A stretch of DNA of 64,000 nt from Clostridiaceae bacterium (GTDB lineage: Bacteria > Bacillota > Clostridia > Oscillospirales > Acutalibacteraceae). Each line of letters begins with the position of its first letter. Position 1 is the stretch's first letter. The notes beneath the pieces are model-generated. The model was not told the DNA's origin. It searched no databases and worked only from the letters and a program-made list of their open reading frames with translations. The stretch spans positions 1 to 64,000 of the forward strand of contig JAEERC010000045.1 of assembly GCA_016285645.1 (NCBI GenBank), in the 5' to 3' direction. Of this stretch, positions 4,940-64,000 are shown in pieces. Both the position numbers and the translations under genes were made by a program.

Positions 4940-5854
4940 ATGAAACGAACAACCTCAGTTCTCGCAGTACTGCTCGCGCTTCTTACGGCGCTCAACGTCA
5001 CCGCATTCGCGGCGGGCGGCTCAGGCGGCGGCAACAATCCGCTCACAATCGATTCCGTAAAAGTCGGCGAAGACGATCTCACGGCGGAGTCCAAAATCTC
5101 CGGCAATTCCGAAATAGTGCTTACTTTCTCGAACAATGTCACGGAAGACACCGTCTGGGACGGCAACCTCGTTCTGATAAGAGTTGAGGATTCCGAAAAT
5201 AACGCTGTGAGCGCAACCGTCTCCAAAGGCACCGAAAAAAACCAGATTTCCGTAACTCTCGGCGGTCTCGCAAAGGGCAGCTACACCCTTTACGCGGGCG
5301 CGGATATCAAAGCAAAGAACGGCAACACTCTCGGTGAGGAAAAGCCATATCCGTTCTCAGTCAAGGGCGAAGGCTCGGGCACCGGCGGCGGCAACAATCC
5401 TCTGAGTCTTGTTTCGGTCAAAGCGAATGACGCCGACCTTGAGGGCGCGGAGCTTGAAGCAAGCGGCAAGATAGTTATCACTTTTGACCGCGGTATGACC
5501 GAAAACCAGGCGGCAAACTTCGAGCAGATAGGCATCTATGACAAAGACGGCAAAAAAGTTGAAGGCGTTACTTTCTCCGATTTCACAAAGGACGATGACG
5601 GCAACAGCTACACCGAACTTTCCTATGAGAACCTTACCGGCGGCGAATATACCCTCAAGCTCGGCAAGGGCCTCAAAGCAAACAACGGAAAAACGCTCGG
5701 CGAAGACAAGGCAATTAACTTCACCGTAAAAGCTGAAGAAGAGCCCGAGGAGAAAACCATTCTTGATAAAATAGTTGATTTCTTCAAAATGATTATCGAT
5801 TTCCTCAAGAACGCATTAAACAAAGTCCTCTCCCTCATAGGTGTTACCCTCTGA
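4940..5854 (+). CDS. Exported protein with two SbsA-Ig domains and an amphipathic C-terminal tail
   Basis: This 304-residue protein has a signal peptide cleaved near TAFA-AGG and two similar Ig-like domains (about residues 32-135 and 150-255). Each opens with a Gly-Gly-Asn-Asn-Pro-Leu stretch followed by a VSVKANDADL-like strand. The C-terminus, IVDFFKMIIDFLKNALNKVL, is a hydrophobic amphipathic helix rather than a charged-end anchor. Similar tails end five other exported proteins in this window. The start lies one base after the previous stop with RBS aaaggaaa, so it is the last gene of the transporter operon. A terminator follows. Function unknown. Confidence 0.82.
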   Translation: MKRTTSVLAVLLALLTALNVTAFAAGGSGGGNNPLTIDSVKVGEDDLTAESKISGNSEIVLTFSNNVTEDTVWDGNLVLIRVEDSENNAVSATVSKGTEKNQISVTLGGLAKGSYTLYAGADIKAKNGNTLGEEKPYPFSVKGEGSGTGGGNNPLSLVSVKANDADLEGAELEASGKIVITFDRGMTENQAANFEQIGIYDKDGKKVEGVTFSDFTKDDDGNSYTELSYENLTGGEYTLKLGKGLKANNGKTLGEDKAINFTVKAEEEPEEKTILDKIVDFFKMIIDFLKNALNKVLSLIGVTL

Positions 5855-6366: not shown

Positions 6367-9300
6367 TCAGCAGATTGATGTGAGGAGGTCGGCTATTGCC
6401 TTGCCGAGGATTTTTTCGATGAGTTCGGCGAAGAAGGCTTTGAGGCGGTCAAAGAAGCCGTTCTTTACCTTGACGCTCTGGATTTTGGTTGTGTCGAGGG
6501 TGTTGCCGTCTTTGTCAATAACCTCGGCATAAATGTTGTAATCCTCTGTCGGGTCTTCGACTGTGTAGCTTTCGCCCGTGCCGACATCCTCGCCGTTTAC
6601 GAACCAGTGAATCTCCGCGCCCTCGGGCAGGCTGGAGGCGTCCGCGGTGTAGGTCACATCTTCCCTGTAGCCGATTTCGCTGTTCTCTTCATAATTCTCA
6701 ATCTGAATTGAGGCTATGTTCTCATAAATCGGCTTGATTGTAATGTCGCTTGTGCCGAGGGTGTATTCCTCCCACTCGCCTGTGTATCCCGCTTTTTCGG
6801 GAACGGCAGGTTCGGTTATGCTTTCATCTTCAACAGTGAATGTTACCTTTTCAACCGTTTCGCCGTTTTCGTCAACGAAGGTCGCTGTATATTCAATCAC
6901 CGTAAATTTGCCGTTGATTGTTACATCTTGGGCGGGCATTGTAGCGGGGATTTCGTCAACCCAGGCGAAAGTGTAGCCTGCTCTTTCATCAACCTCGGGC
7001 TCTGTTATATTGCCGCCGAAGGGGATTGTTTCGTTTTTATATGATTCTCCGTCAACCTTCCATGTGAGTTTATAATCAATGGGGGTTTCGGTATAAGTCG
7101 CCGTGTAAGTCGCGTCACCCGTTACCGGAACGATTGAGGGTGTCCACGCGAGGAACGAATATGTATATTCCGCAGTTGCTTCTTTTGTCGGCGTTTCGCC
7201 TGTATATGCAGGAGTTTCACCGTATGGAACCTGAACGCTCTGAAGCCCGGCGCCGTCATCATTGACGAACTCTACGGTGTGTTTGTCTTTAGCAAAATTC
7301 GCAACCAGATTGCGGTCACCCGTTACGGGGAATGAATATTTTGCGTTTGTGCTGACTTCAGCGCCGTTTTCCGTCCAATTGACGAAACTGTAATGATCGT
7401 TTGACAATGCGGTAACTGTTGCGTTTTCCCCGTAGTTATATGTTCCGGCTCCCGAAACCGTGCCGCCGTCCGGAAGATTCGCCGAAACCGAAACGCTCTT
7501 GACCTGAAGTTTGAAATTTGCGACAAGATTGCGGCTTTGTTCAACCGTGAATGAATACTTCGCGTTTGTGCTTACTACAGAGGTGCCTTCTGTCCAGCTG
7601 ACAAAATCATAACCTGTTTCCGGCGCAGCGGTTAAAGCAACATCCGCACCTTTGTAGGTCTTGCCGCCGCCCGTTATTGTGCCGCCGCCGGTCGGGTTTG
7701 CCGTTACGGTTATTGTCAGAGGATTTGTTATGATTACATTTACTGCGGGGATTTTTTCATCCGCGGTAACATCATACACCAGGTAAACATCGCTGCCTGT
7801 TTCAAGCGGATCTATAATATAGTTTGCCGGTTCAACTATTTCATTGCCGTTCTCTGTAATTAAGCTGCCTTTAATCCACAGCGCGCCGTATCTTGTGCCG
7901 CCTTCGAGCGTCACAAAGCTGTCGCCGGAAACGGTAAAGTTTTCTTCATCTGAAAAATACAGACCTCTGCCATATGTGCCTGTGCATCCGGATTCAACCG
8001 AACTGTCTGATATTGTCAGCGCAGACGCGCAGAAAATGCCGTATTGATCTCCCGTGCCTTCGGCATAAACAGAGCTGTTTCTGATATCGATATCATCGGC
8101 GATGATGCCGGTGCCGCCGGAGTCACCACCAGTGGCTGTGACGTTGATATCCGCGCCGTCAATCAGCAAATCACAGTTTATTAAAATACCGTTTTTTTCT
8201 GCCGTTATTGAAAGTTTTCCGTCGCCGGTTAAGGCAAGGCCGGAAGATGCCGAATTGTTCACCATCCAGATACCGCGCTCCGCGGGACCGAGGGTATTTT
8301 CACCCTCAAGGTTGATTGTGATGTTAAACTCCTTGTTTTCAACAAGAATGTTTGAATCGTGTGTGCCGCCGGACTTATAAGACTGCGTGCCGGTGATTGT
8401 CGCGTTATTGAGATAAAGCGTGCCGCCCTTGCCGTCAGTGTCGGGCACGAATTTAACCGAGCCGCCGTCGGTGACTGCAATGCCGTCAAGCGCATCGAGT
8501 GAATCCGCATTGTCGCTCGTTACCTGATTGCCGCCGACCCAGAGGGGAAATTCAGCATTTTTCGGCGGCCAGTTTGCAAATAATATTTCATCCGCGGAAA
8601 TCTGCCGTCCCTCTTCATCAAGGTTGAAGCCTTTGAGGTGCGGATAATATACACAATAGGTTTCATTTTCTTTTACAAGCCAGTTTTCATCTGTAAAGCC
8701 CGTCATATTATCAAGAGCGCTTTCACCGGTCATCTGCCCGGTAGTGAGGCCTGTGACATCTGTGACGGTGCCGTCATTATTTACTCCGACAGCATTCCAG
8801 TTGTTACTTTCACCTGCTTCGGTAATCACTGCCACATCCCTGTCATAATAACAGTTTGTGATTACACCGCTTCCTTCCGGATATCCTTCCCATTTGCCAT
8901 TATAACCTGCCACGCCGCCGGAATAAGAAGTTAATCGGTCAACATCACCCGTTGCAGTTACCGTCACGTTGCCCGCGTTATAGCAGTCGATAACTTTATA
9001 CTCATTGTTTCCGACAACGCCGCCGGTGCGAACATATGCGTCGGTATAGTATTCATAATTGTTTTTAATTGCCGTTACGCTTACATCACCCGAGTTATAG
9101 CAGTTCTGAATCGTGCCGACATTTTCGCCGATAAGACCGCCGGTATAGGTTAAGGAATGGACAAATTCACCTTTTACCGTAACATTGCCCGTGTTAAAGC
9201 AGTTGTCAACATAGTTGACGGTTGAGCCCGCCAGACCGCCGGCGTATGATTCGGAAACGACGCCGGTTGATTCCGCGGTCACATCACCCGTATTACAGCA

Positions 9301-11298
9301 GCCCGTAAGATTGTCAACAGGATTATCCCCGATTATTCCGCCGACATAGATTTCACCGGTTGCCCATCCTGCGAATTCTGTTTTTACCGTTGCATAAACA
9401 TCGCCTGCGTTGAAACAGTTTTTAATCCCGCTGTACATAATTTGACTGTTTCCGGTTGAAACTATGCCGCCGGCATAAGCATGGGCAGCAGTATAATTAT
9501 TGCCGGATGTTGCTATCGCTGCTGCCGTTGCCGTTATCTTTCCCGTGTTATAACAATCTGTGATAACGTCAACCGATATATAGGGTTGACTGATAATAAT
9601 TAAATCAAAATGTCCAACAATACCGCCGGCATATGCATAGTAATAATATCCCGTTGACGTTATGTCGCCCGTATTATAACAGTTGTCAACTGTTCCGTTT
9701 GTGACAGTTCCGGCCACACCGCCGGCGCAGCCTCTGGCTGAAACCGGACCTGTGTTCCGGCAGTTAATGACCTGACCGGGCAAATAATACGACATCATTG
9801 ACACGCCGGCATTTTCACCGACTAAGCCGCCGACAGCGTCTTCGCCGGAAACACTGCCTGTGTTATAGCAATTCTCGATTATTCCGCCATAGTTATATCC
9901 GGCCACGCCGCCGACATGTTTTTGTCCTGTTATGCTTCCGCCTTCAAGACCGACATTCCGGACTTTACCGCCTTCGTCGACATAACCGAAAAGGCCGGCG
10001 TAATCCTGTTGCGGGTTGTTGAAAGTCAGCCCGGTTATTTTATGACCGAGACCGTCAAATGTGCCGGTGTATCGATGGCCATAATCATTACCGATAGGAG
10101 TCCAGTCGTTCGCCTCGGCCGAAGCGGAGGCGTCGATATCCGCCGTAAGCACACCGATAAGACCCGTTTCGCCGCCGTTTACGCGGGAGGCGAATTCCTT
10201 CAGCTCCGCGTAATCTGATATCTCAAACGCATCCACAGTGTGAGTGCTCTCATAGGTTTCACCGTCTATAGTGACAGACGCTTTGGCTTCCGTGTAGCCG
10301 GGAACAGCTCCGTCCGGATTGGTATGAGTAAACGTGACTCTGTCCGCCCCGCCTGTTTTTTCGGCTCCGCAGCCGGCGCAGTATGCGGTGTATGTCGGGT
10401 GACTTACATCATCCCAGTTCCAGACCGGTTCGCCGTAATTGTGAGTATAGGAGAAGGTGCCCGAGGCCGATGTTCCCTGAACGGTAAAGGTGTCTCCGAC
10501 ATCATTTACATTGATATAAGAAGAACCAGAAGTAAACTTAGCTTTGTCAAAATTACAGGGTATTGTAATCGAAGTGAGTTCTGAACAACCGTAGAAAGTA
10601 TAACCGCTGAAATCTGTAACGGAGTTGCTGCTGAATGTGACCGACTCAAGGTTACCGCAGCTGGCAAATGTGCCGTTCAGTGACGGAACATTCGCGCCGA
10701 TTACCGCGGACTGAAGATTGGTACAGTTGCGGAAAGCATAAGTTCCCAAAGTAGTTACATTGTCCGGAATAACCACTGATTCAAGGTTTTGACAGTCTTG
10801 AAACGCATAATTGCCTATAGTTGTAACACCTTGCGGAATATCTATTGAAGACAAATTTTTGCATCCGTAAAAAGCATTTACTCCTATGGTTGTCAGTGCG
10901 CTGCCTTCACCGAATGATACAGATGTAAGATTAGTCATGTTTTGGAATGCCCGAACGCCGATTTTTTTGACGGTATCGGGAATTGTAATGCCTGTAACAC
11001 CCGAAAACATAACGTCATTGAACGCACCGTCTCCGATTTCTATAACGATGTAATCACGATCATCAAGATGAAGAACGGACGGTATGGCTATGTTGCCGGA
11101 AATACTCACGGCTGCGTCAGCCGGCTCAGAGCCGGGGATAATCCTTACGCCGGTGCTGCCTTCGAGAATTTCATAACTCCACTTTATACCATCAACCTCA
11201 TCGAACTCCGCGCCCGCCGTAACGGGAGCCGCTGCGCACACGCCCAGCGCCATAATAACGCTGAGCAGAATTGATAAAATCCTCTTGCCTGTTTTCAT
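6367..11298 (-). CDS. Giant exported LRR/GLUG/InlB-repeat surface protein
   Basis: The 1643-residue protein starts with a signal peptide (about residues 1-30, ending TAGA). About residues 85-255 carry BspA-type leucine-rich repeats (pattern LTSVSF...IGVNAFYGCKNL). Residues about 425-820 are GLUG-type repeats (GGLVGENAG...NCYNTGSV). About 910-1155 looks like a beta-helix or strand-repeat region. About 1190-1520 are Listeria/Bacteroides InlB-type repeats (YTFAWVD, GYTGEWEEYTLG). Residues about 1535-1605 form an Ig-like module, followed by the amphipathic tail FFDRLKAFFAELIEKILG and a final Cys. No LPXTG motif is present. Such architectures occur in adhesin-like surface proteins of gut bacteria; a role in binding host or matrix is inference. 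RBS aaggagga precedes the ATG. It is a single-gene unit with its own promoter. Confidence 0.88.
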   Translation of the reverse strand: MKTGKRILSILLSVIMALGVCAAAPVTAGAEFDEVDGIKWSYEILEGSTGVRIIPGSEPADAAVSISGNIAIPSVLHLDDRDYIVIEIGDGAFNDVMFSGVTGITIPDTVKKIGVRAFQNMTNLTSVSFGEGSALTTIGVNAFYGCKNLSSIDIPQGVTTIGNYAFQDCQNLESVVIPDNVTTLGTYAFRNCTNLQSAVIGANVPSLNGTFASCGNLESVTFSSNSVTDFSGYTFYGCSELTSITIPCNFDKAKFTSGSSYINVNDVGDTFTVQGTSASGTFSYTHNYGEPVWNWDDVSHPTYTAYCAGCGAEKTGGADRVTFTHTNPDGAVPGYTEAKASVTIDGETYESTHTVDAFEISDYAELKEFASRVNGGETGLIGVLTADIDASASAEANDWTPIGNDYGHRYTGTFDGLGHKITGLTFNNPQQDYAGLFGYVDEGGKVRNVGLEGGSITGQKHVGGVAGYNYGGIIENCYNTGSVSGEDAVGGLVGENAGVSMMSYYLPGQVINCRNTGPVSARGCAGGVAGTVTNGTVDNCYNTGDITSTGYYYYAYAGGIVGHFDLIIISQPYISVDVITDCYNTGKITATAAAIATSGNNYTAAHAYAGGIVSTGNSQIMYSGIKNCFNAGDVYATVKTEFAGWATGEIYVGGIIGDNPVDNLTGCCNTGDVTAESTGVVSESYAGGLAGSTVNYVDNCFNTGNVTVKGEFVHSLTYTGGLIGENVGTIQNCYNSGDVSVTAIKNNYEYYTDAYVRTGGVVGNNEYKVIDCYNAGNVTVTATGDVDRLTSYSGGVAGYNGKWEGYPEGSGVITNCYYDRDVAVITEAGESNNWNAVGVNNDGTVTDVTGLTTGQMTGESALDNMTGFTDENWLVKENETYCVYYPHLKGFNLDEEGRQISADEILFANWPPKNAEFPLWVGGNQVTSDNADSLDALDGIAVTDGGSVKFVPDTDGKGGTLYLNNATITGTQSYKSGGTHDSNILVENKEFNITINLEGENTLGPAERGIWMVNNSASSGLALTGDGKLSITAEKNGILINCDLLIDGADINVTATGGDSGGTGIIADDIDIRNSSVYAEGTGDQYGIFCASALTISDSSVESGCTGTYGRGLYFSDEENFTVSGDSFVTLEGGTRYGALWIKGSLITENGNEIVEPANYIIDPLETGSDVYLVYDVTADEKIPAVNVIITNPLTITVTANPTGGGTITGGGKTYKGADVALTAAPETGYDFVSWTEGTSVVSTNAKYSFTVEQSRNLVANFKLQVKSVSVSANLPDGGTVSGAGTYNYGENATVTALSNDHYSFVNWTENGAEVSTNAKYSFPVTGDRNLVANFAKDKHTVEFVNDDGAGLQSVQVPYGETPAYTGETPTKEATAEYTYSFLAWTPSIVPVTGDATYTATYTETPIDYKLTWKVDGESYKNETIPFGGNITEPEVDERAGYTFAWVDEIPATMPAQDVTINGKFTVIEYTATFVDENGETVEKVTFTVEDESITEPAVPEKAGYTGEWEEYTLGTSDITIKPIYENIASIQIENYEENSEIGYREDVTYTADASSLPEGAEIHWFVNGEDVGTGESYTVEDPTEDYNIYAEVIDKDGNTLDTTKIQSVKVKNGFFDRLKAFFAELIEKILGKAIADLLTSIC

Positions 11299-26014: not shown

Positions 26015-27976
26015 ATGACTGAGTTCAGACGCTTCACCGCTGCGTTCCTCGCGGCTGTTATGCTGCTGTTCTGCCTGCCCTTCGCGGCTTCGGCGGACGA
26101 GGTGAAGCCCGACTACAATGTGGTTATAAAAACGGGCAAATACGAAGGCGCCGAGTGGACGGAGTGCACCGCTTTCGCGCCGGGCGACACTGCCGACGTG
26201 CGCGTATATCTCGGCACGGATTTTGACTTCGGTTCATTCGAATCCATCTTTTTCTTTGACAAGGCGTTCTTCACCTCGCCCTACGGCACATATCATAAGG
26301 ACAATTCCGTTCTGAACCCGTACTATAACGGCAGTTCCGATGCTTACAACACCGTTCAGAGCGAGAACGCGAACATATCGAACCTTCTTGTATCCTCCGG
26401 TCAGATTACCGAGGAGGAAAGTGAGAGATACGGCTGGATTTACTCCTCATACGAGCGCTCGTTTTCCGACAACTCCATACCGCTGAACATTGAAGAGTAT
26501 TTCTATGAATTTGAACTTACCGTAAATGAGAACGCGCAGGGCGGCGGATGGGTAAAAGCCCTGCCCTCAACCTTCTATAAAACGGGCGATTCCGTGAAAT
26601 ATCTTTTCAACCCGACCAAGGCGGAAGGTTATGACGATATGTCAATCGTGTGCAACCCCGTTATCACAAACACCCACGCGGTAATCGGCGACGCGGCTTC
26701 CCCCGAAACGGTCACAATCACCTTTGACGCAAACGGCGGAACAATAACGGGCGAAGCGAGCACCGAATACAACTACGGCGCGCTTGTGACTGTGCCCGAG
26801 GTCACCGCTCCCGAAGGAGTGACCTTCCTCGGCTGGTATGACACGGATGATGTTCTTCTCGAAAACACTGATGAACTGCTTGCGCTTGAGGATGAAACAT
26901 ACAAAGCGAAATACTCCTGCACGGCGACTTTTGCAGCCGACGGCGAGGTTGTTGAAACAATCCCCTTCACCTCGGGCGACACTCAGCTTGAAAATGTTCC
27001 CGATGTTCCGCCTAAAACGGGCTATGAAGGCAAGTGGGAAGATTACACTCTCGGCAGTGAGAATATAACAGTAAACGCGCAGTACAGCGTGATTGAGTAT
27101 AAAGCGAAATTCGTAGCCGACGGCACGACCGTAGCGGAAATTCCCTTCACCGTGAACACGCAGAGCATCACGCCTCCCGCCGTTCCCGCAAAAGCGGGCT
27201 ATGAAGGCAAGTGGGAAGATTACACTCTCGGCAGTGAGAATATAACAGTAAACGCGCAATACAGCGTGATTGAGTATAAAGCGAAGTTCGTCGCGGACGG
27301 CATAGTCGTAGCGGAAATTCCCTTCACCGTGAACACGCAGAGCATCACGCCTCCCGCCGTTCCCGCAAAAGCGGGCTATAACGGCAAATGGGAAAGTTAC
27401 ACCCTCGGCACTGAGAATATAACCGTAAACGCGCAGTACACAGCGATTGAGTATAAAGCGAAATTCGTTTCCGACGGCGTGACCGTAGCGGAGATTCCTT
27501 ACACCGTGAACACGCAGAGCATCACGCCTCCCGCCGTTCCCGCAAAAGCGGGTTATGAAGGTAAGTGGGAGGATTACGCCCTCGCAATCGGCGGAATTAC
27601 CGTAAACGCAAAATACACGGTTATTTCCGCGCTCTCCGTTCCCGCGAGCGGGCAGACGGTTAATTACAGGAACAAGGTTAAAATGACCGCCGCCGCAAAC
27701 GACATTCCCGACGGATATCATGTTGCCTGGTATGACGAAAACGGAAAGGTATCCGACAGCGAAACGCTCCTGACGGGCGAACTCAGGGCGGACGCGACAT
27801 ACACCGCCAAGATTGTTGACGAGGACGGCAATGTGCTCAAAGACGCCGAAGGCAATGATGTGAGCAAATCGGTTACAATAAAGGTAAACGCCGGCTTCTT
27901 CAAACGCCTTATAGCGTTCTTCAGATGGCTGTTCTCGTTCATCACGGGCGGTCAGCCGACAGTGGTACTGAAATAA
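26015..27976 (+). CDS. Exported repeat protein with Ig module and amphipathic tail
   Basis: The 653-residue protein has a signal peptide ending AASA near residue 28 and an N-terminal domain (about 30-225) of unknown family. An InlB-type repeat opens VTITFDANGGTITGEAS near residue 231, followed by about four 59-residue repeats, each with a GYEGKWEDYTLGSENITVNA-like stretch. An Ig-like module (about 536-625) precedes the tail FFKRLIAFFRWLFSFITG. No LPXTG motif is present. Co-transcription with the LCP gene suggests a cell-wall-related role, which is inference. RBS aaaaggagtg is strong. Confidence 0.88.
   Translation: MTEFRRFTAAFLAAVMLLFCLPFAASADEVKPDYNVVIKTGKYEGAEWTECTAFAPGDTADVRVYLGTDFDFGSFESIFFFDKAFFTSPYGTYHKDNSVLNPYYNGSSDAYNTVQSENANISNLLVSSGQITEEESERYGWIYSSYERSFSDNSIPLNIEEYFYEFELTVNENAQGGGWVKALPSTFYKTGDSVKYLFNPTKAEGYDDMSIVCNPVITNTHAVIGDAASPETVTITFDANGGTITGEASTEYNYGALVTVPEVTAPEGVTFLGWYDTDDVLLENTDELLALEDETYKAKYSCTATFAADGEVVETIPFTSGDTQLENVPDVPPKTGYEGKWEDYTLGSENITVNAQYSVIEYKAKFVADGTTVAEIPFTVNTQSITPPAVPAKAGYEGKWEDYTLGSENITVNAQYSVIEYKAKFVADGIVVAEIPFTVNTQSITPPAVPAKAGYNGKWESYTLGTENITVNAQYTAIEYKAKFVSDGVTVAEIPYTVNTQSITPPAVPAKAGYEGKWEDYALAIGGITVNAKYTVISALSVPASGQTVNYRNKVKMTAAANDIPDGYHVAWYDENGKVSDSETLLTGELRADATYTAKIVDEDGNVLKDAEGNDVSKSVTIKVNAGFFKRLIAFFRWLFSFITGGQPTVVLK
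27088..27620 (+). repeat. 177-bp tandem coding repeats
   Basis: Near-identical 177-bp units (59 codons) start at about 27091, 27268 and 27445. The first two differ at only a few positions. Their in-frame length means that recombination would change copy number without breaking the gene. Confidence 0.9.
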
Positions 27977-28050: not shown

Positions 28051-31000
28051 TTAAAAGGCAAACGAGAAAACTTTTCTGATAACCGCGATTAAGCGCCAGA
28101 GCCAGGAGATGTTGAGGCGGTTCGCTATGAAGCTTACGAGTCTGCCGAGAAGCGAGGCGGCGTCGTTTGCCGCTTCGGAGTTCTTTTCAATGGCGAAGTT
28201 GTCAACTCTTTCTGCTTTGCCGTCCTTTACTGTGTAGGCGTCAAAATAGAGCATATCGCCGTCTGTGCGCACCGAAACAAACATCGGGGCGTCGGGGGTG
28301 AATTTAACCTCGGCGTCGGGGAAGGAGGAATCCTCTTTCTCCGCGTGGGATCTCTTTACGCCGCCCGAGCCGGGAACCACATAGACGGTGCCCTGAGGAT
28401 TGATCTTTGCCGTGTAGTCAAGCCCGTTGTAGGAAACGGTCTTTTCCTTTGCGCTTATTTCAACGCCGCCGCTTATTGCGCCGCTTCGCCAGTAAACGCA
28501 TTCCCTGCCCTGAAGAACAAGGTCAACGCCGAGGCGTGAAAGCAGGGGCGAGAGCTGGGCTCTTACGCCCTTTACATCCTTGTCGCCGCTGTGGGCGCCG
28601 TTTGAGTAAATCGCGTTGGGAATAACGGCTATCTTCCATTTCGCATCGGAGGAGGAGATATCCTCCTCAATCCATTCAAGCTGCTCCGCGCTGAGTTTTT
28701 TGTTCTCAACATCGTTTGTGTTTATGACCGTGAAATGGATGTTGCCGTAATCGTATGAGTAGTAAACGCCTGTTTCGGAATCAGATGCGGTTGCGGGCAA
28801 GCTGAAGTTTTCGGCAACATAGCCGCCCGCCTTTTCCCTGCTGCCCGAAGAGGGCATAAAGAATTTGTTTGAGAAAAATTCCGAATTGACATTCAAAAGG
28901 TCTCTCCAGTGGTGGCTGTTTTTGGCGAGAGTTACCTGATTGCCGGCGGATACGATGAAGTTTGCTTCGGGCACGGTGTCAAACGCCGCTTTGAATGTGT
29001 CGTTCACAACGCCGTAGTGGGTCGGGTTCTGACCCTGAATGTCGGCTACCGCTATGAATGCGGCTTTGTCGCTGTCGTAATCGACCTCAATAACTCCCGG
29101 CTCGCTCCACCATCCGCGCGAGGCATCGCCCACGCGGTAGGAGTATTTGCCGCTCTCTGTGAAATTGACCGTCACGCAATGTCTTGTATATTCCTTTTCA
29201 AAATCGAGGAAGGCGATTATGCCGAGATCGGCGCCGGGATAACTGATAAACGTGCTGTCGGTATGCGATGAAACCGAGTCTATTCCGTATTCGGTGCCGT
29301 TTTCAAAATCGGGGTTTTCGCTGTAGTTTACAATCTGGATATCGGTGCCCGTCACGCTGTATTTTGTAAGCCAGGTGATATCCGCGCCGACCGGGCTTCC
29401 GCTCATTGTTATCGCTATATTTGAGGGCAGGCGGTAATTTTCAACCGTCGCCTCGACATCCTCGGGACCCGAGTATGTTATGGCGTAGGAACCGTCCGCC
29501 TGACGCATCGGGTTGTGGTCGATAACAAGGGTGCTGACCATCCAGCTTATTGTGTGACCCCACGCCTGGAACTGGCTGTCAACAAAGAACTCGTCGCCTA
29601 TGAGCGTGTCGAGTATATTGTCAAGTGACGAATATTTATCGGGCACAAGCGCTATGCCGAGCACGGAATTCACAAGGTTGAGAAGACTGTTGTCGCCGCC
29701 GAGAAGAGCGGTTGAAACCGCCTGTAAAATATCGCCCGTGAGAGCGAGCAGTGTGCCGTCCGGGAAGAGTTCGCCGGGGTTGAAATCGATGTTCGCGAGA
29801 ATCTCGTTTTTGACGAGATCTTCAACCACCGTTTCGCGCAGGAGGGCGAAGAATTCCTTCGCAAGCTCGCCGCTCTCAAATTTCGCGAGCACATCCTGAA
29901 CCATCGGGTCATCCTCGCCTATCTCGTCGCCGCCGTAATAGGCGAGAAGCATCATCTGGCCGAAATCGTCGAGAGTGGTCGGCCCCGTCGCGTTGCCGTG
30001 ACCCGACTGCTCGTAGAAGAGGGTGCAGGGCTTGTCGCTGAGTTCAAACGAAAGAAGCTTGTGAAGAATGGTTCTGACAAACTCCAGGCAGTAGTCGGGA
30101 TCGTTTATGTATCTCTCGTCAATCTGTTTTCCGATATCCTTTATCAAGCCCATAAGGTTCTGGCTGACGGTGAGTATTTCCACATCGCCGAGCGCCAGAC
30201 CGTTTGTGCCGAGGGCGTCAACAATAATCTTTTCGAGGTCTATGTTCTTTTCTTTGAGGAAGCCGAGAAGTCCGCCCGCCGCCTGAATCTGCGGGAAGTA
30301 GCTTTCAACAAGGCCGTCAACCGCGGAATAAGCGAAATCCTCAATGGTCTCGCCGAAGGTCATATCGTAGGAATTTGTGTATTTGAACGGCTGCTCATAA
30401 GTTATGGTCTCGCCGTTTCTCTCATAGGACAGCGGAGTGAGTTCATCGATGTCGTGGCTTACCATATTCATTGAGAAGTCACCGTCTGAATATGTGAACT
30501 CCGCGATTCTCATCATATTGGGATAACCCGTGATGGTGGATGAGAGCAGGTCGGTTATCCTCTCGCCGTTGTCGTTTACATAGGAAGCCGTGTCGTGCGA
30601 GTGAAGGTGACCCGTGAAGGCGTAGTGAATACCCGCGTCGGCGTAGGTGTCGCAGACATATTCCCAGTTGTCTATGACGAAGGCGAAGAAGGTCGCCTCC
30701 TCAATATCCATATGCTGAACGAGGTTGTGGTGCTGCATAAGGATTATCTGCAAGCCGTTGTCGTTGGCGTACTGCGCCTGCTCCTTTATCCAGTCCATAA
30801 GGTCGTCGCCTATCATACCGTCGGTAAGGTGCTCGTTTTTCTCCGAGCCGTTGTCGGCGGAATACTTGTTTGAGTCAACGGCGATGAGCATATAGTCATC
30901 GTTTAACTTCCACGAATAGGAGAGATATCCGCCGTAGTTGCCCGCCGCGGGCTTGAAGCGCGAAACGCAGCCGGGGTCGCTCTCGTCATAGCCGAAGTCC

Positions 31001-31506
31001 TTATACAGGATTTCAAAATCGGTCGGCTCGGTTATTCTGGCGGGAACGGCTTTTTCGCCCGTGTAGTCTGTGGCGTTGCTGTTTCTTATATCGTGGTTGC
31101 CGGGCACAACAAACACGGGAATATCGGTCTCCGCCTCAAAAGCGGCGAATTTTTCCGCCATCTGTTTATGGGATTCATACTCGCCGTCCTTCGTGATATC
31201 ACCCGGGATGAGCACGAAGGCGCTGTTGTTGCGCTTTGCCTCCTCAAGATAATGCTCCGAGAGGTCGAAGGCATTGTCCAGAATGGAGTTCGCAAGCTCC
31301 ATCTGGCGGTGGGTGGTTCGCAGATAAACCTGCCAGGCGGGGCTGTTGTAATCGTAGAGATTATCCGCGAGGTAGTGCATGTCCGAGAACACGGAGAAGG
31401 TTATTGTTGAACTCGCGGCGCTCGCGAACAGCGGGACACAGGAGAGTACCAGCGTAAGCGCTGTGAATACGCAGAGCCCTTTTATGAATTTCGAGTAGCG
31501 TTTCAT
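28051..31506 (-). CDS. Exported double metallophosphoesterase with degenerate second domain
   Basis: The 1151-residue protein has a signal peptide (ends FASA near residue 30). The first calcineurin-like domain is intact: D42-x-H44 (SDMHY), G102-D103 (PGDITKDGE), G136-N-H-D (PGNHDIRN), H259/H260 and G299-H-L-H (TGHLHSHD). A long helical and beta middle region follows. The second phosphoesterase-like domain (about 810-1075) has DIQGQNP, SAGNQVTLA, PSSGSREKAGGY and LQGRECVYWRSG where active enzymes have D-x-H, GD, GNHD and GHxH, so it has probably lost its metals. The end SWLWRLIAVIRKVFSFAF is an amphipathic tail. Substrate is unknown. It follows the GH3 gene by 12 bases. Confidence 0.87.
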   Translation of the reverse strand: MKRYSKFIKGLCVFTALTLVLSCVPLFASAASSTITFSVFSDMHYLADNLYDYNSPAWQVYLRTTHRQMELANSILDNAFDLSEHYLEEAKRNNSAFVLIPGDITKDGEYESHKQMAEKFAAFEAETDIPVFVVPGNHDIRNSNATDYTGEKAVPARITEPTDFEILYKDFGYDESDPGCVSRFKPAAGNYGGYLSYSWKLNDDYMLIAVDSNKYSADNGSEKNEHLTDGMIGDDLMDWIKEQAQYANDNGLQIILMQHHNLVQHMDIEEATFFAFVIDNWEYVCDTYADAGIHYAFTGHLHSHDTASYVNDNGERITDLLSSTITGYPNMMRIAEFTYSDGDFSMNMVSHDIDELTPLSYERNGETITYEQPFKYTNSYDMTFGETIEDFAYSAVDGLVESYFPQIQAAGGLLGFLKEKNIDLEKIIVDALGTNGLALGDVEILTVSQNLMGLIKDIGKQIDERYINDPDYCLEFVRTILHKLLSFELSDKPCTLFYEQSGHGNATGPTTLDDFGQMMLLAYYGGDEIGEDDPMVQDVLAKFESGELAKEFFALLRETVVEDLVKNEILANIDFNPGELFPDGTLLALTGDILQAVSTALLGGDNSLLNLVNSVLGIALVPDKYSSLDNILDTLIGDEFFVDSQFQAWGHTISWMVSTLVIDHNPMRQADGSYAITYSGPEDVEATVENYRLPSNIAITMSGSPVGADITWLTKYSVTGTDIQIVNYSENPDFENGTEYGIDSVSSHTDSTFISYPGADLGIIAFLDFEKEYTRHCVTVNFTESGKYSYRVGDASRGWWSEPGVIEVDYDSDKAAFIAVADIQGQNPTHYGVVNDTFKAAFDTVPEANFIVSAGNQVTLAKNSHHWRDLLNVNSEFFSNKFFMPSSGSREKAGGYVAENFSLPATASDSETGVYYSYDYGNIHFTVINTNDVENKKLSAEQLEWIEEDISSSDAKWKIAVIPNAIYSNGAHSGDKDVKGVRAQLSPLLSRLGVDLVLQGRECVYWRSGAISGGVEISAKEKTVSYNGLDYTAKINPQGTVYVVPGSGGVKRSHAEKEDSSFPDAEVKFTPDAPMFVSVRTDGDMLYFDAYTVKDGKAERVDNFAIEKNSEAANDAASLLGRLVSFIANRLNISWLWRLIAVIRKVFSFAF

Positions 31507-56747: not shown

Positions 56748-58271
56748 ATGAAAAACCGAACCGCAAAAGGTATTATTGCCGTTTTTCTCGCGCTCGTTCT
56801 TCTGGCAGCGCCCGTGCTCGCCTGTATGGCGAACGCCTATGAGGCGACTGTTCCGACAATTGAAATGCGCGGCTTTATGAGTTCGACAATCTACGCCGTG
56901 GAAAACGACCCCGAGAGCGAACAGCTCTGGCCGCCGACCACGGATAAAATCCTCGGACTTGTCAAAAACATTCTGGGCCCGCTCGCGAAGCTCAGCGTAA
57001 ACCGCGACTGGGACGCCTTCGCCTATGTGCTCGCGGGTGAAGTGAACAATATGCTCGGCGACCTTTGGCTCGACAACAACGGCGATTTACCCGACAACAG
57101 CGGCGTTTATATGCCCTACCCCGCCGAGGACGAGGTTGTTAAAGACGGCGAATACGAGTTTGTTTTCGACTGGAGAATAGACCCCTACGAAGCCGCCGCC
57201 GGTCTCAACGATTTTGTTCAGTACATCCTCGAAGCGTCGGGCAGCGACAAGGTAAACATCATCTGCCACAGTTACGCGGGCATTGTCGTGACCTGCTATT
57301 TGGAGGAGTACGGCTGCGACGCGGTCAGGAGCGTGTGCTACAACTCCACCGCCGTTTACGGCGCGGGCTTTACTAAAGATATTATCAGGGGCAAGCTCTT
57401 TGTGGGCGGCGATTCCGCGCTTTCCGGCTCGGGAGCCGAATCGGTCATCGCCTACCTTCTCGGCGCTTTTTCAAACAATCAGTACGCAACAATAATCGAC
57501 ACGGTTATTGATATGGTCTCAAAAGCGGGGCTTATGGATTTCCTGTCGAATTTCCTCAACAAACTGCTTCTCAATTCAAGCGACATCCTTTACAAGGAGA
57601 GCGTCGCTCCCCTGTTCGGTCTCTGGCCCGCAATCTGGGCGATGATTCCCGACGAGGATTTCGAGGAGGGTCTCGACTACATTTTCAACGATGTTCTTGC
57701 CGACACGGGCGAGGATTACTCGGGACTTTTTGAGAAGATTGACCACTACACCGAAAGCGTGCGCGAAAAGCGCGAGGATGTTCTCAACACAATAAACGAC
57801 AACTGCAATTTCTATGTTATATCGCGCTACGGCTACTCCGCCCTGCCGCTGACCACCTCCTGGCACACGATGACGGACGGCGTGCTTGACACCAAGGCGA
57901 CCTCCTTCGGAGCCACGGTTTCCGACTATGATGTAACAGACCTTTTCGAGGTCACAAACGAGTATATCTCGCCCAACGGGCAGATTGACGCGTCAACCTG
58001 TCTCTTCCCCGAGCAAACCTGGTTTATCAGAAGCGCCTCGCACATACAGCACTTCCCCGATATCCAGAAACTGGCAAAAGAACTTGTGTGCTATGACGGT
58101 CAGGCGACGGTTGAAACCTTTGAGCAGTACCCGCGTTTTATGTATTACAGCGCCGCTACGGATTCGCTCATCGCCGACCCGGGCATTTCCGCGCCGATGA
58201 CTTTCATTCAGAAATTCGTTGAGTTCTTCAAGGAATTTTTCGCGCTTATCTTTTCAATTTTCAAGAAATAA
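56748..58271 (+). CDS. Exported alpha/beta-hydrolase (lipase-like) with amphipathic tail
   Basis: The 507-residue protein has a signal peptide (about 1-30). Its probable nucleophile elbow is C173-H-S175-Y-A-G178 within VNIICHSYAGIVVTCYLEEY, a variant of Gly-x-Ser-x-Gly in which Cys replaces the first Gly. The arrangement (DWRIDPYEAAAGLNDFVQYI before it) recalls PGAP1/LCAT-type lipases that act on membrane lipids. Candidates for the catalytic His lie in SHIQHFPDIQKL near the end. The C-terminus FIQKFVEFFKEFFALIFSIF is an amphipathic helix like those of five other proteins here. Substrate unknown. Monocistronic, with its own promoter and terminator. Confidence 0.78.
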   Translation: MKNRTAKGIIAVFLALVLLAAPVLACMANAYEATVPTIEMRGFMSSTIYAVENDPESEQLWPPTTDKILGLVKNILGPLAKLSVNRDWDAFAYVLAGEVNNMLGDLWLDNNGDLPDNSGVYMPYPAEDEVVKDGEYEFVFDWRIDPYEAAAGLNDFVQYILEASGSDKVNIICHSYAGIVVTCYLEEYGCDAVRSVCYNSTAVYGAGFTKDIIRGKLFVGGDSALSGSGAESVIAYLLGAFSNNQYATIIDTVIDMVSKAGLMDFLSNFLNKLLLNSSDILYKESVAPLFGLWPAIWAMIPDEDFEEGLDYIFNDVLADTGEDYSGLFEKIDHYTESVREKREDVLNTINDNCNFYVISRYGYSALPLTTSWHTMTDGVLDTKATSFGATVSDYDVTDLFEVTNEYISPNGQIDASTCLFPEQTWFIRSASHIQHFPDIQKLAKELVCYDGQATVETFEQYPRFMYYSAATDSLIADPGISAPMTFIQKFVEFFKEFFALIFSIFKK

Positions 58272-62176: not shown

Positions 62177-64000
62177 TTATTTGGGTTCAATAACCACGGT
62201 GGGAACTCTCTTGAGCCACTTTCTGATAAGGGCGATAAGTCTCAGGAAGATGTTGCTTACAACGGTGATCTTTACTGTTTTTACCATATCGCTGCCGGTT
62301 GAATCCTTCGCGATGTTACCGTTGCGGTCAACAACCCTGAATATAATCGTCTGTGTCTCTTCAAGAGCGTCGAGAGGAACTATTATTTCCTTGTCGTTGG
62401 CGTTGGTTTCATACGCCTTGGAGCTGGTGATTGCCTGAATCTTGTAGCCGTTGGGCATAGCGTAGGAGTTTGCCTTGACGGTGACAATGGTACCGTATCT
62501 TACAGAGGTATCTACGGGAACATTGAGGGTGACGCCTATGAGAGCGCCGCAGTCATCGCAGATGCTGTCGCTGTTTCTGTCGGTGTGGTTGACGGGATTG
62601 ATGGCGATCTCTTTTTCATCGCTTGTGGTGATAGTCTCACCGCAGACGGTGCAGCAGACCTTTGTAACATAGGTGCCCTTTTCAGAGCAGGTCGCGTTCT
62701 TTGTAATGATATCCTGAGCCTCACCCGGAGTGTGAGCGAGCTTGGGAGTGTTGCGGGTTACGGGAGTGGTGATATTAAATGACTGAAGCTGGCGTTCCTC
62801 AAATACCGCGGTGTAATCCGCACTGCCTTCCTTTTTGCAGGTGGCGGGAACAATGTTGCTTGTTTCAACCTTCGCCTTGACTTCGTCCTTGTGGGCGGAA
62901 TCGTTCTTGCAGGTAAGAGTGGCAACATAGTCGTTGCCTGCCCACGCGCATTCGGCGTTTTCATAATCCCAGTCGTGGCCGATCGGGTCGGTCGGGTTGG
63001 TTGTGTATTTGATGTGGCACATTGAGCACTCGTATTCGGAGTAGCCGCCTTCGGTGCAGGTGGGATCGGTTACGGTTTCCTCATAGATGTGGTCGATTAC
63101 GGGCAGATATGTTGTTTTGCTTTCGCCGCAGTCGGGGCAGTACCAGTATTCCTCGCCCGATTCCGTGCAGGTTGCGGGAGTTGTGTATGTTGTGGCGTTC
63201 GCGTGTTTGATTGCGGGAAGCACCTCAACCGAATCTTCATCAATATCTCCGCAGACTTCGCAGTAGTCGTACTCTTCGCCGTCCTCTTCGCAGGTCGGGT
63301 CAATCTTTTCGTGCTTTGTGAACTTGTGGCCGTTTGCCGCAACCTCATCAAAGTGGCCGGACTCAAAGCCGCAGCCCTCAACCGTGCAGTACTGATATGA
63401 GTAGCCGACATCCGTGCAGGTGGGCGGGACAGTTTCGGTTTCGATTGTGTGGGTTTCGCTCGCCTCAACCTCAACCTCTCTGGTTTCACCGCAGTTGTTG
63501 CAGGTGAAAACAGCTGTGCCGCCGCCTTCGGTGCAGGAAGCGGGTGTGGTGAGTTCCCAATCGTGACCTGTCGCGGGAAGGATTTCCTTGAGACCGATTT
63601 CCTCGCCGCAGACCGCGCACTTATTTACTTTGTAGCCGGGTTCTGTGCAGGTCGGCTCCTTTAAATCTTCCTCTATTACATGAGCGTTGGGATCCGAGTA
63701 AACAATCTGTGTAATGGGCTCGCCGTCGGCGTCAACGATGGGAGCGCCGACCATAACCTGGTTGCCTTCATCGTCAACAACGGGCTCGCCGTCTTTATTG
63801 ATAACGGGCTTGCCGTTTTCGTCGAGAATAAGATTTCCGTCCTCGTCAAGAGCGGGAGCGTAAAGGGGCTCCTTCTCCTCACAGTCGGTGCAGAAAAGCT
63901 GATTGAAGCCGTCGTTTGAGCAGGTCATTGCAACAACGGTGACATACTCGGTGTGGTAATAAGTGGCTGTTGAGTCATCGGAAAGAACGGTGTGAACGGG
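62177..64000 (-). CDS. Exported cysteine-repeat protein with Ig module and amphipathic tail (partial)
   Basis: The frame is open to the right edge of the window, so the N-terminus (and any signal peptide) is missing; an internal Met at 63928 is not taken as the start. The visible 607 codons contain many repeats of the type TCTEPGYKVNKCAVCGEE, each with a C-x2-C pair and often followed by LPATGHDW. They resemble small zinc ribbons of clostridial surface proteins; metal binding is untested. An acidic stretch near 63790-63890 repeats Asp-Gly-Asn/Glu units. An Ig-like module (about 62270-62560) and the tail IFLRLIALIRKWLKRVP close the protein. LPATG occurs only inside the repeats, not as a terminal sortase signal. 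Confidence 0.8.
   Translation of the reverse strand, partial: PVHTVLSDDSTATYYHTEYVTVVAMTCSNDGFNQLFCTDCEEKEPLYAPALDEDGNLILDENGKPVINKDGEPVVDDEGNQVMVGAPIVDADGEPITQIVYSDPNAHVIEEDLKEPTCTEPGYKVNKCAVCGEEIGLKEILPATGHDWELTTPASCTEGGGTAVFTCNNCGETREVEVEASETHTIETETVPPTCTDVGYSYQYCTVEGCGFESGHFDEVAANGHKFTKHEKIDPTCEEDGEEYDYCEVCGDIDEDSVEVLPAIKHANATTYTTPATCTESGEEYWYCPDCGESKTTYLPVIDHIYEETVTDPTCTEGGYSEYECSMCHIKYTTNPTDPIGHDWDYENAECAWAGNDYVATLTCKNDSAHKDEVKAKVETSNIVPATCKKEGSADYTAVFEERQLQSFNITTPVTRNTPKLAHTPGEAQDIITKNATCSEKGTYVTKVCCTVCGETITTSDEKEIAINPVNHTDRNSDSICDDCGALIGVTLNVPVDTSVRYGTIVTVKANSYAMPNGYKIQAITSSKAYETNANDKEIIVPLDALEETQTIIFRVVDRNGNIAKDSTGSDMVKTVKITVVSNIFLRLIALIRKWLKRVPTVVIEPK

Follow-up and report, generated by a model that had tools for sequence, protein, structure and literature searches.

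An Ig-like module and an amphipathic helix form a C-terminal cassette on dozens of exported proteins of a Clostridiaceae bacterium

About 41 otherwise unrelated proteins encoded in a single Clostridiaceae genome carry the same two-part C-terminal tag, an Ig-like module followed by an amphipathic helix. The cassette is probably a transferable C-terminal unit for surface retention. It appears to represent a new, unnamed C-terminal family, the mechanism of which is probably a new variation on known anchoring. By analogy, the likeliest mechanism is monotopic membrane anchoring of the kind used by E. coli PBP5, moved here onto large surface proteins, a reading in which we place about as much belief as doubt.

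The stretch of DNA analysed (hereafter the window) comprises 64,000 nucleotides, positions 1–64,000 of contig C60, which has 105,960 bases. A preliminary description had proposed that the ends of the genes at 6367, 26015 and 62177 are related. Indeed, the three ends can be mutually aligned, with Smith-Waterman scores of 143, 121, and 59, whereas shuffled sequences average about 28 (z = 21.8, 18.8, and 6.6), and none of 2000 shuffles scored as high as any pair. The Ig-like module taken alone gives z values of 12.9, 12.0, and 4.5. The start at 63928 given for the gene ending at 62177 is wrong, as its open reading frame continues past the window to about position 65152 of the contig. The full form has 991 residues, with the N-terminal signal peptide MKKTMKKLVALALSLMIVCGVAAG, and its Cys-rich repeats (TCTExGxxxYxCxxCG type; 62177–64000, minus strand) have no counterpart in Pfam at E ≤ 1. 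Beyond the three noted ends, three other secreted proteins of the window terminate in a related amphipathic tail but lack the module. The features of the window are as follows.

62252–62545, minus strand: predicted Ig-like module, gene ending at 62177 (alignment, shuffles, own-genome profile matches)
62180–62251, minus strand: amphipathic C-terminal tail IFLRLIALIRKWLKRVPTVVIEPK, gene ending at 62177
27614–27895, plus strand: predicted Ig-like module, InlB/Flg_new-repeat protein 26015–27976 (profile match; AlphaFold pLDDT 84.8)
27896–27973, plus strand: amphipathic C-terminal tail FFKRLIAFFRWLFSFITGGQPTVVLK, InlB/Flg_new-repeat protein 26015–27976
6457–6720, minus strand: predicted Ig-like module, LRR/GLUG protein 6367–11298 (profile match)
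6370–6456, minus strand: long amphipathic tail FFDRLKAFFAELIEKILGKAIADLLTSIC with C-terminal Cys, LRR/GLUG protein 6367–11298
5759–5851, plus strand: module-free related amphipathic tail ILDKIVDFFKMIIDFLKNALNKVLSLIGVTL, secreted protein 4940–5854 (tail-profile score 19.0, above that of PBP5)
28054–28152, minus strand: module-free related tail LLGRLVSFIANRLNISWLWRLIAVIRKVFSFAF, secreted metallophosphoesterase-like protein 28051–31506 (tail-profile score 14.8)
58197–58268, plus strand: module-free related tail MTFIQKFVEFFKEFFALIFSIFKK, secreted lipase-like protein 56748–58271 (tail-profile score 15.5)

A profile made from the three ends matches 44 places in the 2.63-Mb genome; almost all of them form the very C-terminus of a protein with a signal peptide. 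A second profile, built from 38 of the genome's own cassettes, gives 41 matches at E ≤ 1e-5. Forty-three of the 44 places were retrieved and their frames read; the match on C52 is a chance match, and one copy is cut by a contig end. The genome-wide counts are based on these profile searches and on about 0.74 Mb of sequence stretches. Among 41 checkable copies, the cassette ends at most 11 residues before the stop codon in 39 and at most 26 residues before it in one. The remaining copy, at C5:73640, is the sole internal cassette, with 298 residues downstream, and is the one exception to the pattern predicted in the preliminary description, namely further matches that are neither cytoplasmic nor internal. 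A signal peptide is present in 35 of the 36 cassette genes with a complete 5' end (34 by a simple rule, one by eye).

The N-terminal parts of the 38 cassette proteins are diverse. Specifically, BspA-type LRR occurs in 15 of the 38, Listeria-Bacteroides repeats in 11, GLUG in 7, and DUF6273 in 5, and further parts include collagen repeats, a papain-like peptidase, CHAP, fn3, ubiquitin, and others. The export signals, the C-terminal position and the diversity of the N-terminal parts together define the unit as a C-terminal cassette of exported proteins. Part of the set is clustered, with at least seven cassette genes in 38 kb of C5 (approximately 54–92 kb), including one for a 3160-residue protein and the one with the internal cassette. 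Recent copying of cassette DNA was considered and rejected: 85% identity over 200 bp is attained by two pairs only, and in some genes the parts upstream are just as similar, which leaves no clear sign of recent transfer.

The module is an Ig/FN3-like β-sandwich as judged from AlphaFold prediction and Foldseek comparison. The model of the 26015 cassette, computed with the 38-row alignment, shows a β-sandwich, a helix at residues 98–114, and a short strand, with a pLDDT of 84.8. The model of a C19 cassette of another subtype reaches a pLDDT of 96.9 and contains nine strands, a helix at residues 88–99, and a strand at residues 105–107. In Foldseek, the sandwich is nearest to Ig, PKD, and FN3-like modules, among them the PKD modules of ColG/ColH; the best match is the FN3-like module of C. 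thermocellum CbhA, and the TM-score of the query with 3pdg/3pe9 is up to 0.65. The predicted fold is the same, whereas the sequence matches to bacterial Ig/PKD/FN3 families in Pfam are weak, and below the cut-off where cut-offs are given. The C-terminal regions of the three full-length window proteins stay below the cut-off of every Pfam and NCBIfam model. For the 38 isolated cassettes, the best Pfam E-values of about 0.001–0.01 are consistent with sub-threshold scores and are not convincing, and NCBIfam gives weak matches only; for the one cassette whose matches are given in full, all of them, including those to the Pfam bacterial Ig-like (Big/PKD) families, lie far below the cut-off. To our knowledge, no bacterial Ig/PKD/FN3-like module has such a conserved C-terminal helix or is confined in such a way to the C-terminus.

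The tail was defined on 112 distinct cassettes, in which the helix core reads G-FF-x-[KR]-[LI]-I-A-FF-[KR]-x-L-F. Positions 5, 6, 9, 12, 13, 16, and 17 are hydrophobic in 99–100% of cassettes and fall on one 160-degree face. Phe is conserved at positions 5, 12, and 13 (89–96%), position 8 is Lys or Arg in 91%, and position 10, located at 140 degrees, is Lys in a quarter of copies. The hydrophobic moment of the tails peaks at 100 degrees. With tail starts taken from alignment columns, all 38 own tails are strongly amphipathic, a property shared by 0.15% of 18-mers drawn at random from inside these proteins; the tails' mean H is 0.83, mean moment 0.65, and mean net charge +1.6. The tail therefore has the properties of a C-terminal amphipathic helix of about 18 residues, as in PBP5/DacA-type enzymes. 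Outside the core, tail sequences are strongly variable, and the extreme C-termini are of three kinds: a longer helix with Cys, a PxVxIEP-like end, and an xxIxQ-like end. The Cys-ending subtype (..AxLLTSIC) is found in 10 own cassettes, including the one at 6370–6456 of the window, and in many relatives; its helical-looking stretch is about 29 residues long, with no returning strand motif.

The last 18 residues of E. coli PBP5 form a membrane-binding amphipathic helix that follows a β-rich module, attaches the enzyme to the cytoplasmic membrane, and is required for its correct localisation (PMC2909392). On a profile made from the cassette tails alone, this anchor helix (NFFGKIIDYIKLMF) scores 17.3, a value reached by one of 5000 shuffles and three of the 558 other C-termini compared. 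PBP5/DacA and DacF-type enzymes thus share with the cassette proteins export, a β-rich module followed by a C-terminal amphipathic helix, and the pattern FFxK(I/L)IxxIKxMF. Likewise, D,D-carboxypeptidases of relatives from the same family have a C-terminal β module and a short amphipathic helix. The cassette differs in its use on large adhesin-like proteins, dozens in each genome, and in often having extra residues or a terminal Cys. None of the families matched by the 38 cassette proteins is Peptidase_S11, and the genome's single S11 protein is the product of another gene.

On the basis of this likeness, we propose that cassette proteins are exported by Sec and that the signal peptide is removed. 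At the protein's base, the Ig-like module would provide spacing. The amphipathic helix of 13–18 residues, after which further helix or a short strand often follows, would be embedded by its Phe-rich face in the membrane's outer leaflet (that of the cytoplasmic membrane), and Lys/Arg on its polar side would contact lipid headgroups or anionic polymers. The hold would be non-covalent, as in PBP5 and its relatives, and the large LRR, GLUG, or InlB-type parts would point outward.

Homology with the β module of PBP5 or DacF was also considered and was rejected, as hhalign against DacF C-termini gives a probability of 0.5% and Foldseek matches Ig/FN3/PKD modules instead. Because the modules are not homologous, the cassette can be said to work like PBP5 but not to be a PBP5. 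Most DacF helices of relatives score poorly on the tail profile. The sole own-genome Peptidase_S11 protein (DacF-type; C41:90989–91699, locus L163) has a transmembrane tail, and the best S11 proteins of sampled relatives have a short amphipathic helix. The missing profile homology to DacF, the poor DacF tail scores, and the transmembrane tail of the own DacF all argue against the anchor reading. Two properties of the cassette itself do so as well. The helix and following strand are predicted with a pLDDT of 93–97 in one subtype, as if the helix were packed on the Ig domain, and the conservation of Phe at positions 5, 12, and 13 is more specific than generic partitioning into a membrane needs.

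Strict Phe conservation and a confidently predicted helix and final strand fit either a folded cap or recognition by a specific partner. As a cap, the helix would pack its Phe face onto the sandwich, and helix and final strand would be integral parts of an unusual Ig domain, which would form a stable end domain or stalk with no anchoring role. The high confidence of the C19 model extends over its helix and strand, the same helix-strand order is found in the 26015 cassette, and the tail is present on the own-genome module matches that reach a stop codon. The position-10 Lys at 140 degrees and the long Cys-terminated subtype without a returning strand are difficult to reconcile with such a cap, and so are related tails on secreted proteins that have no module. 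Four module-free proteins with a signal peptide have high-scoring C-termini, including the lipase-like and metallophosphoesterase-like proteins; three are the window proteins at 4940, 28051, and 56748, and the fourth is encoded on C5 near 105.8 kb (locus L170). Similar tails are found on other domains in other genera of the family (loci L102 and L100). At strict thresholds, such a tail is present in 4 of 67 module-free signal-peptide proteins versus 1 of 338 cytosolic-like proteins (p = 0.003). The broader proposition that most secreted proteins carry such tails was rejected: at looser thresholds the excess is modest (8 of 47 versus 14 of 253 cytosolic), in a sample of stretches that avoid module genes by design and with a signal-peptide heuristic that has false positives, and the strict test was used instead. 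The tail, being found on module-free secreted proteins, is not tied to the module. Mainly because the two are separable, a function of the tail's own is preferred over a purely structural cap, which we consider unlikely.

No LPXTG-like motif with a transmembrane segment and a positive C-terminus is found in the 38 own or about 80 related C-termini, there are no SLH domains in the genome at E ≤ 0.01, and even a resemblance to a lipobox Cys after the signal peptide occurs in only 2 of the 36 complete N-termini. The outcome proposed for the cassette, display of large modular surface proteins, is the same as that of LPXTG/sortase and SLH systems, but neither signal is used. The preliminary description was therefore correct in that a C-terminal cassette without LPXTG or SLH is joined to unrelated N-terminal parts, as seen in the own genome and with a C-terminal position in 27 of 27 further species. 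The genome has four sortase-family genes, and the C-terminal position of the tail would also suit a signal that a transpeptidase, sortase-like or other, removes or exchanges. We regard such processing as most improbable, given the lack of LPXTG-like motifs and of a transmembrane segment with a basic cluster, the lack of any common short motif at a constant distance ahead of the tail, and the three kinds of extreme C-terminus.

The tail could instead be a lytic or oligomerising peptide that ends the adhesins, in the manner of phenol-soluble modulins, with the terminal Cys forming disulfide dimers in one subtype. Three cassettes are weakly similar to phenol-soluble modulin ε (E = 0.035), and the 10 own cassettes with a C-terminal Cys make up most of the 12 such ends among 264 ORFs of the same stretches. 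However, the modulin similarity is at chance level, and a conserved Ig module in a single copy per protein fits attachment better; we judge this possibility to be very unlikely.

The logic of the cassette, an Ig-like C-terminal domain on unrelated exported proteins, is that of the C-terminal domain of type IX secretion (Por_Secre_tail). That domain belongs to another phylum, the cassette has an amphipathic tail instead, and no Por_Secre_tail-type match is present among the 25 of 47 Pfam families listed or the 22 NCBIfam families for the cassettes. By analogy with it, or with SLH domains, a hypothetical dedicated protein or wall component might recognise the Ig-helix unit after export and attach or display its cargo. 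One conserved module common to dozens of unrelated exported proteins per genome, with specific Phe and Gly conservation, would suit such recognition. In addition, ten cassette proteins have an unusual extended signal peptide (consensus MKxxKKxxSLLLCLILLFGSxAAGGxGFAxxLDALSVKASA, c-region GGxGFAxxLDxLSVKASA; for example C5:60343, C5:56858, C66:9639, C38:3846, and C19:4458), which calls to mind a pairing of N- and C-terminal signals. When the whole genome is searched with this peptide, exactly these ten are full-length matches, and the next matches cover the generic start only; since cassette proteins were the input of the model, its information lies in the lack of any full match to a non-cassette gene. 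Against such recognition, the extended signal peptide is confined to roughly one in four cassette proteins, some of them N-terminal paralogues, and the tails vary strongly outside the core and also occur without the module. Several of the ten are possibly related at their N-termini, and common descent may be the cause of the pairing. On balance, recognition of this type is distinctly unlikely. A broader version, in which a dedicated, unrecognised display route with its own partner machinery would use the Ig-helix signal, sometimes together with the extended signal peptide, for tens of giant adhesin-like proteins per cell, also appears unlikely.

The preliminary description had implied an undescribed route, which overstates the case, as D,D-carboxypeptidases such as E. 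coli PBP5 are already known to be anchored to the membrane by a β-module and C-terminal amphipathic helix (PMC2909392). What does seem to lack an earlier description, judging from searches of curated libraries and open papers, is the family itself and its genome-wide use; no description of such tails in Clostridia or in Gram-positive surface proteins was found in the open literature.

The cassette is concentrated in one genus, where it occurs in 40 of the 41 species sampled, with 1 to 41 copies each. Its occurrence in the same family is scattered (8 of 60 genomes, of which several give weak matches only), and the cassette is found in 2 of 295 genomes of the order and 1 of 349 of a phylum sample, each count including the own genome; in the order and phylum scans only the top candidates per genome were scored, and weak copies may be missed. 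A wide spread of the tail across the order was likewise rejected, as a sequence profile at E ≤ 0.001 finds, in 197 genomes, only G018 besides the own genome. The position is conserved among relatives, with all 54 first-set copies with the tail matched and those of all 27 further species located at the C-terminus. The named relatives with the cassette are assemblies of uncultured Clostridia or Ruminococcaceae, several of which come from projects on the rumen or on the gut of other herbivores, and include RUG13231, RUG13820, RUG14154, Reindeer_2_mag_142, Tb.RUG.68, RGIG2708, and others. With the cassette as a sequence marker, one can pick out those of the many hypothetical proteins in uncultured rumen Clostridia that are probably retained at the surface. 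The cassette also suggests that a lineage lacking SLH can employ monotopic anchoring by a C-terminal helix, known from a handful of cell-wall enzymes, as a modular anchor across a whole genome.

Two cassette proteins (C63:64897–69978, L047:1910–6976; C73:13572–17036, L048:1609–5034) contain a complete, near-eukaryotic ubiquitin right behind the signal peptide, followed by GLUG repeats. The Pfam ubiquitin match has an E-value of 4.6e-30, and the C63 copy has about 8 differences from eukaryotic polyubiquitin over 75 residues. The ubiquitin gene looks to be of eukaryotic origin and its product surface-displayed, with the end LRLRGG replaced by LRLKGE or LRLGGS in the two proteins.
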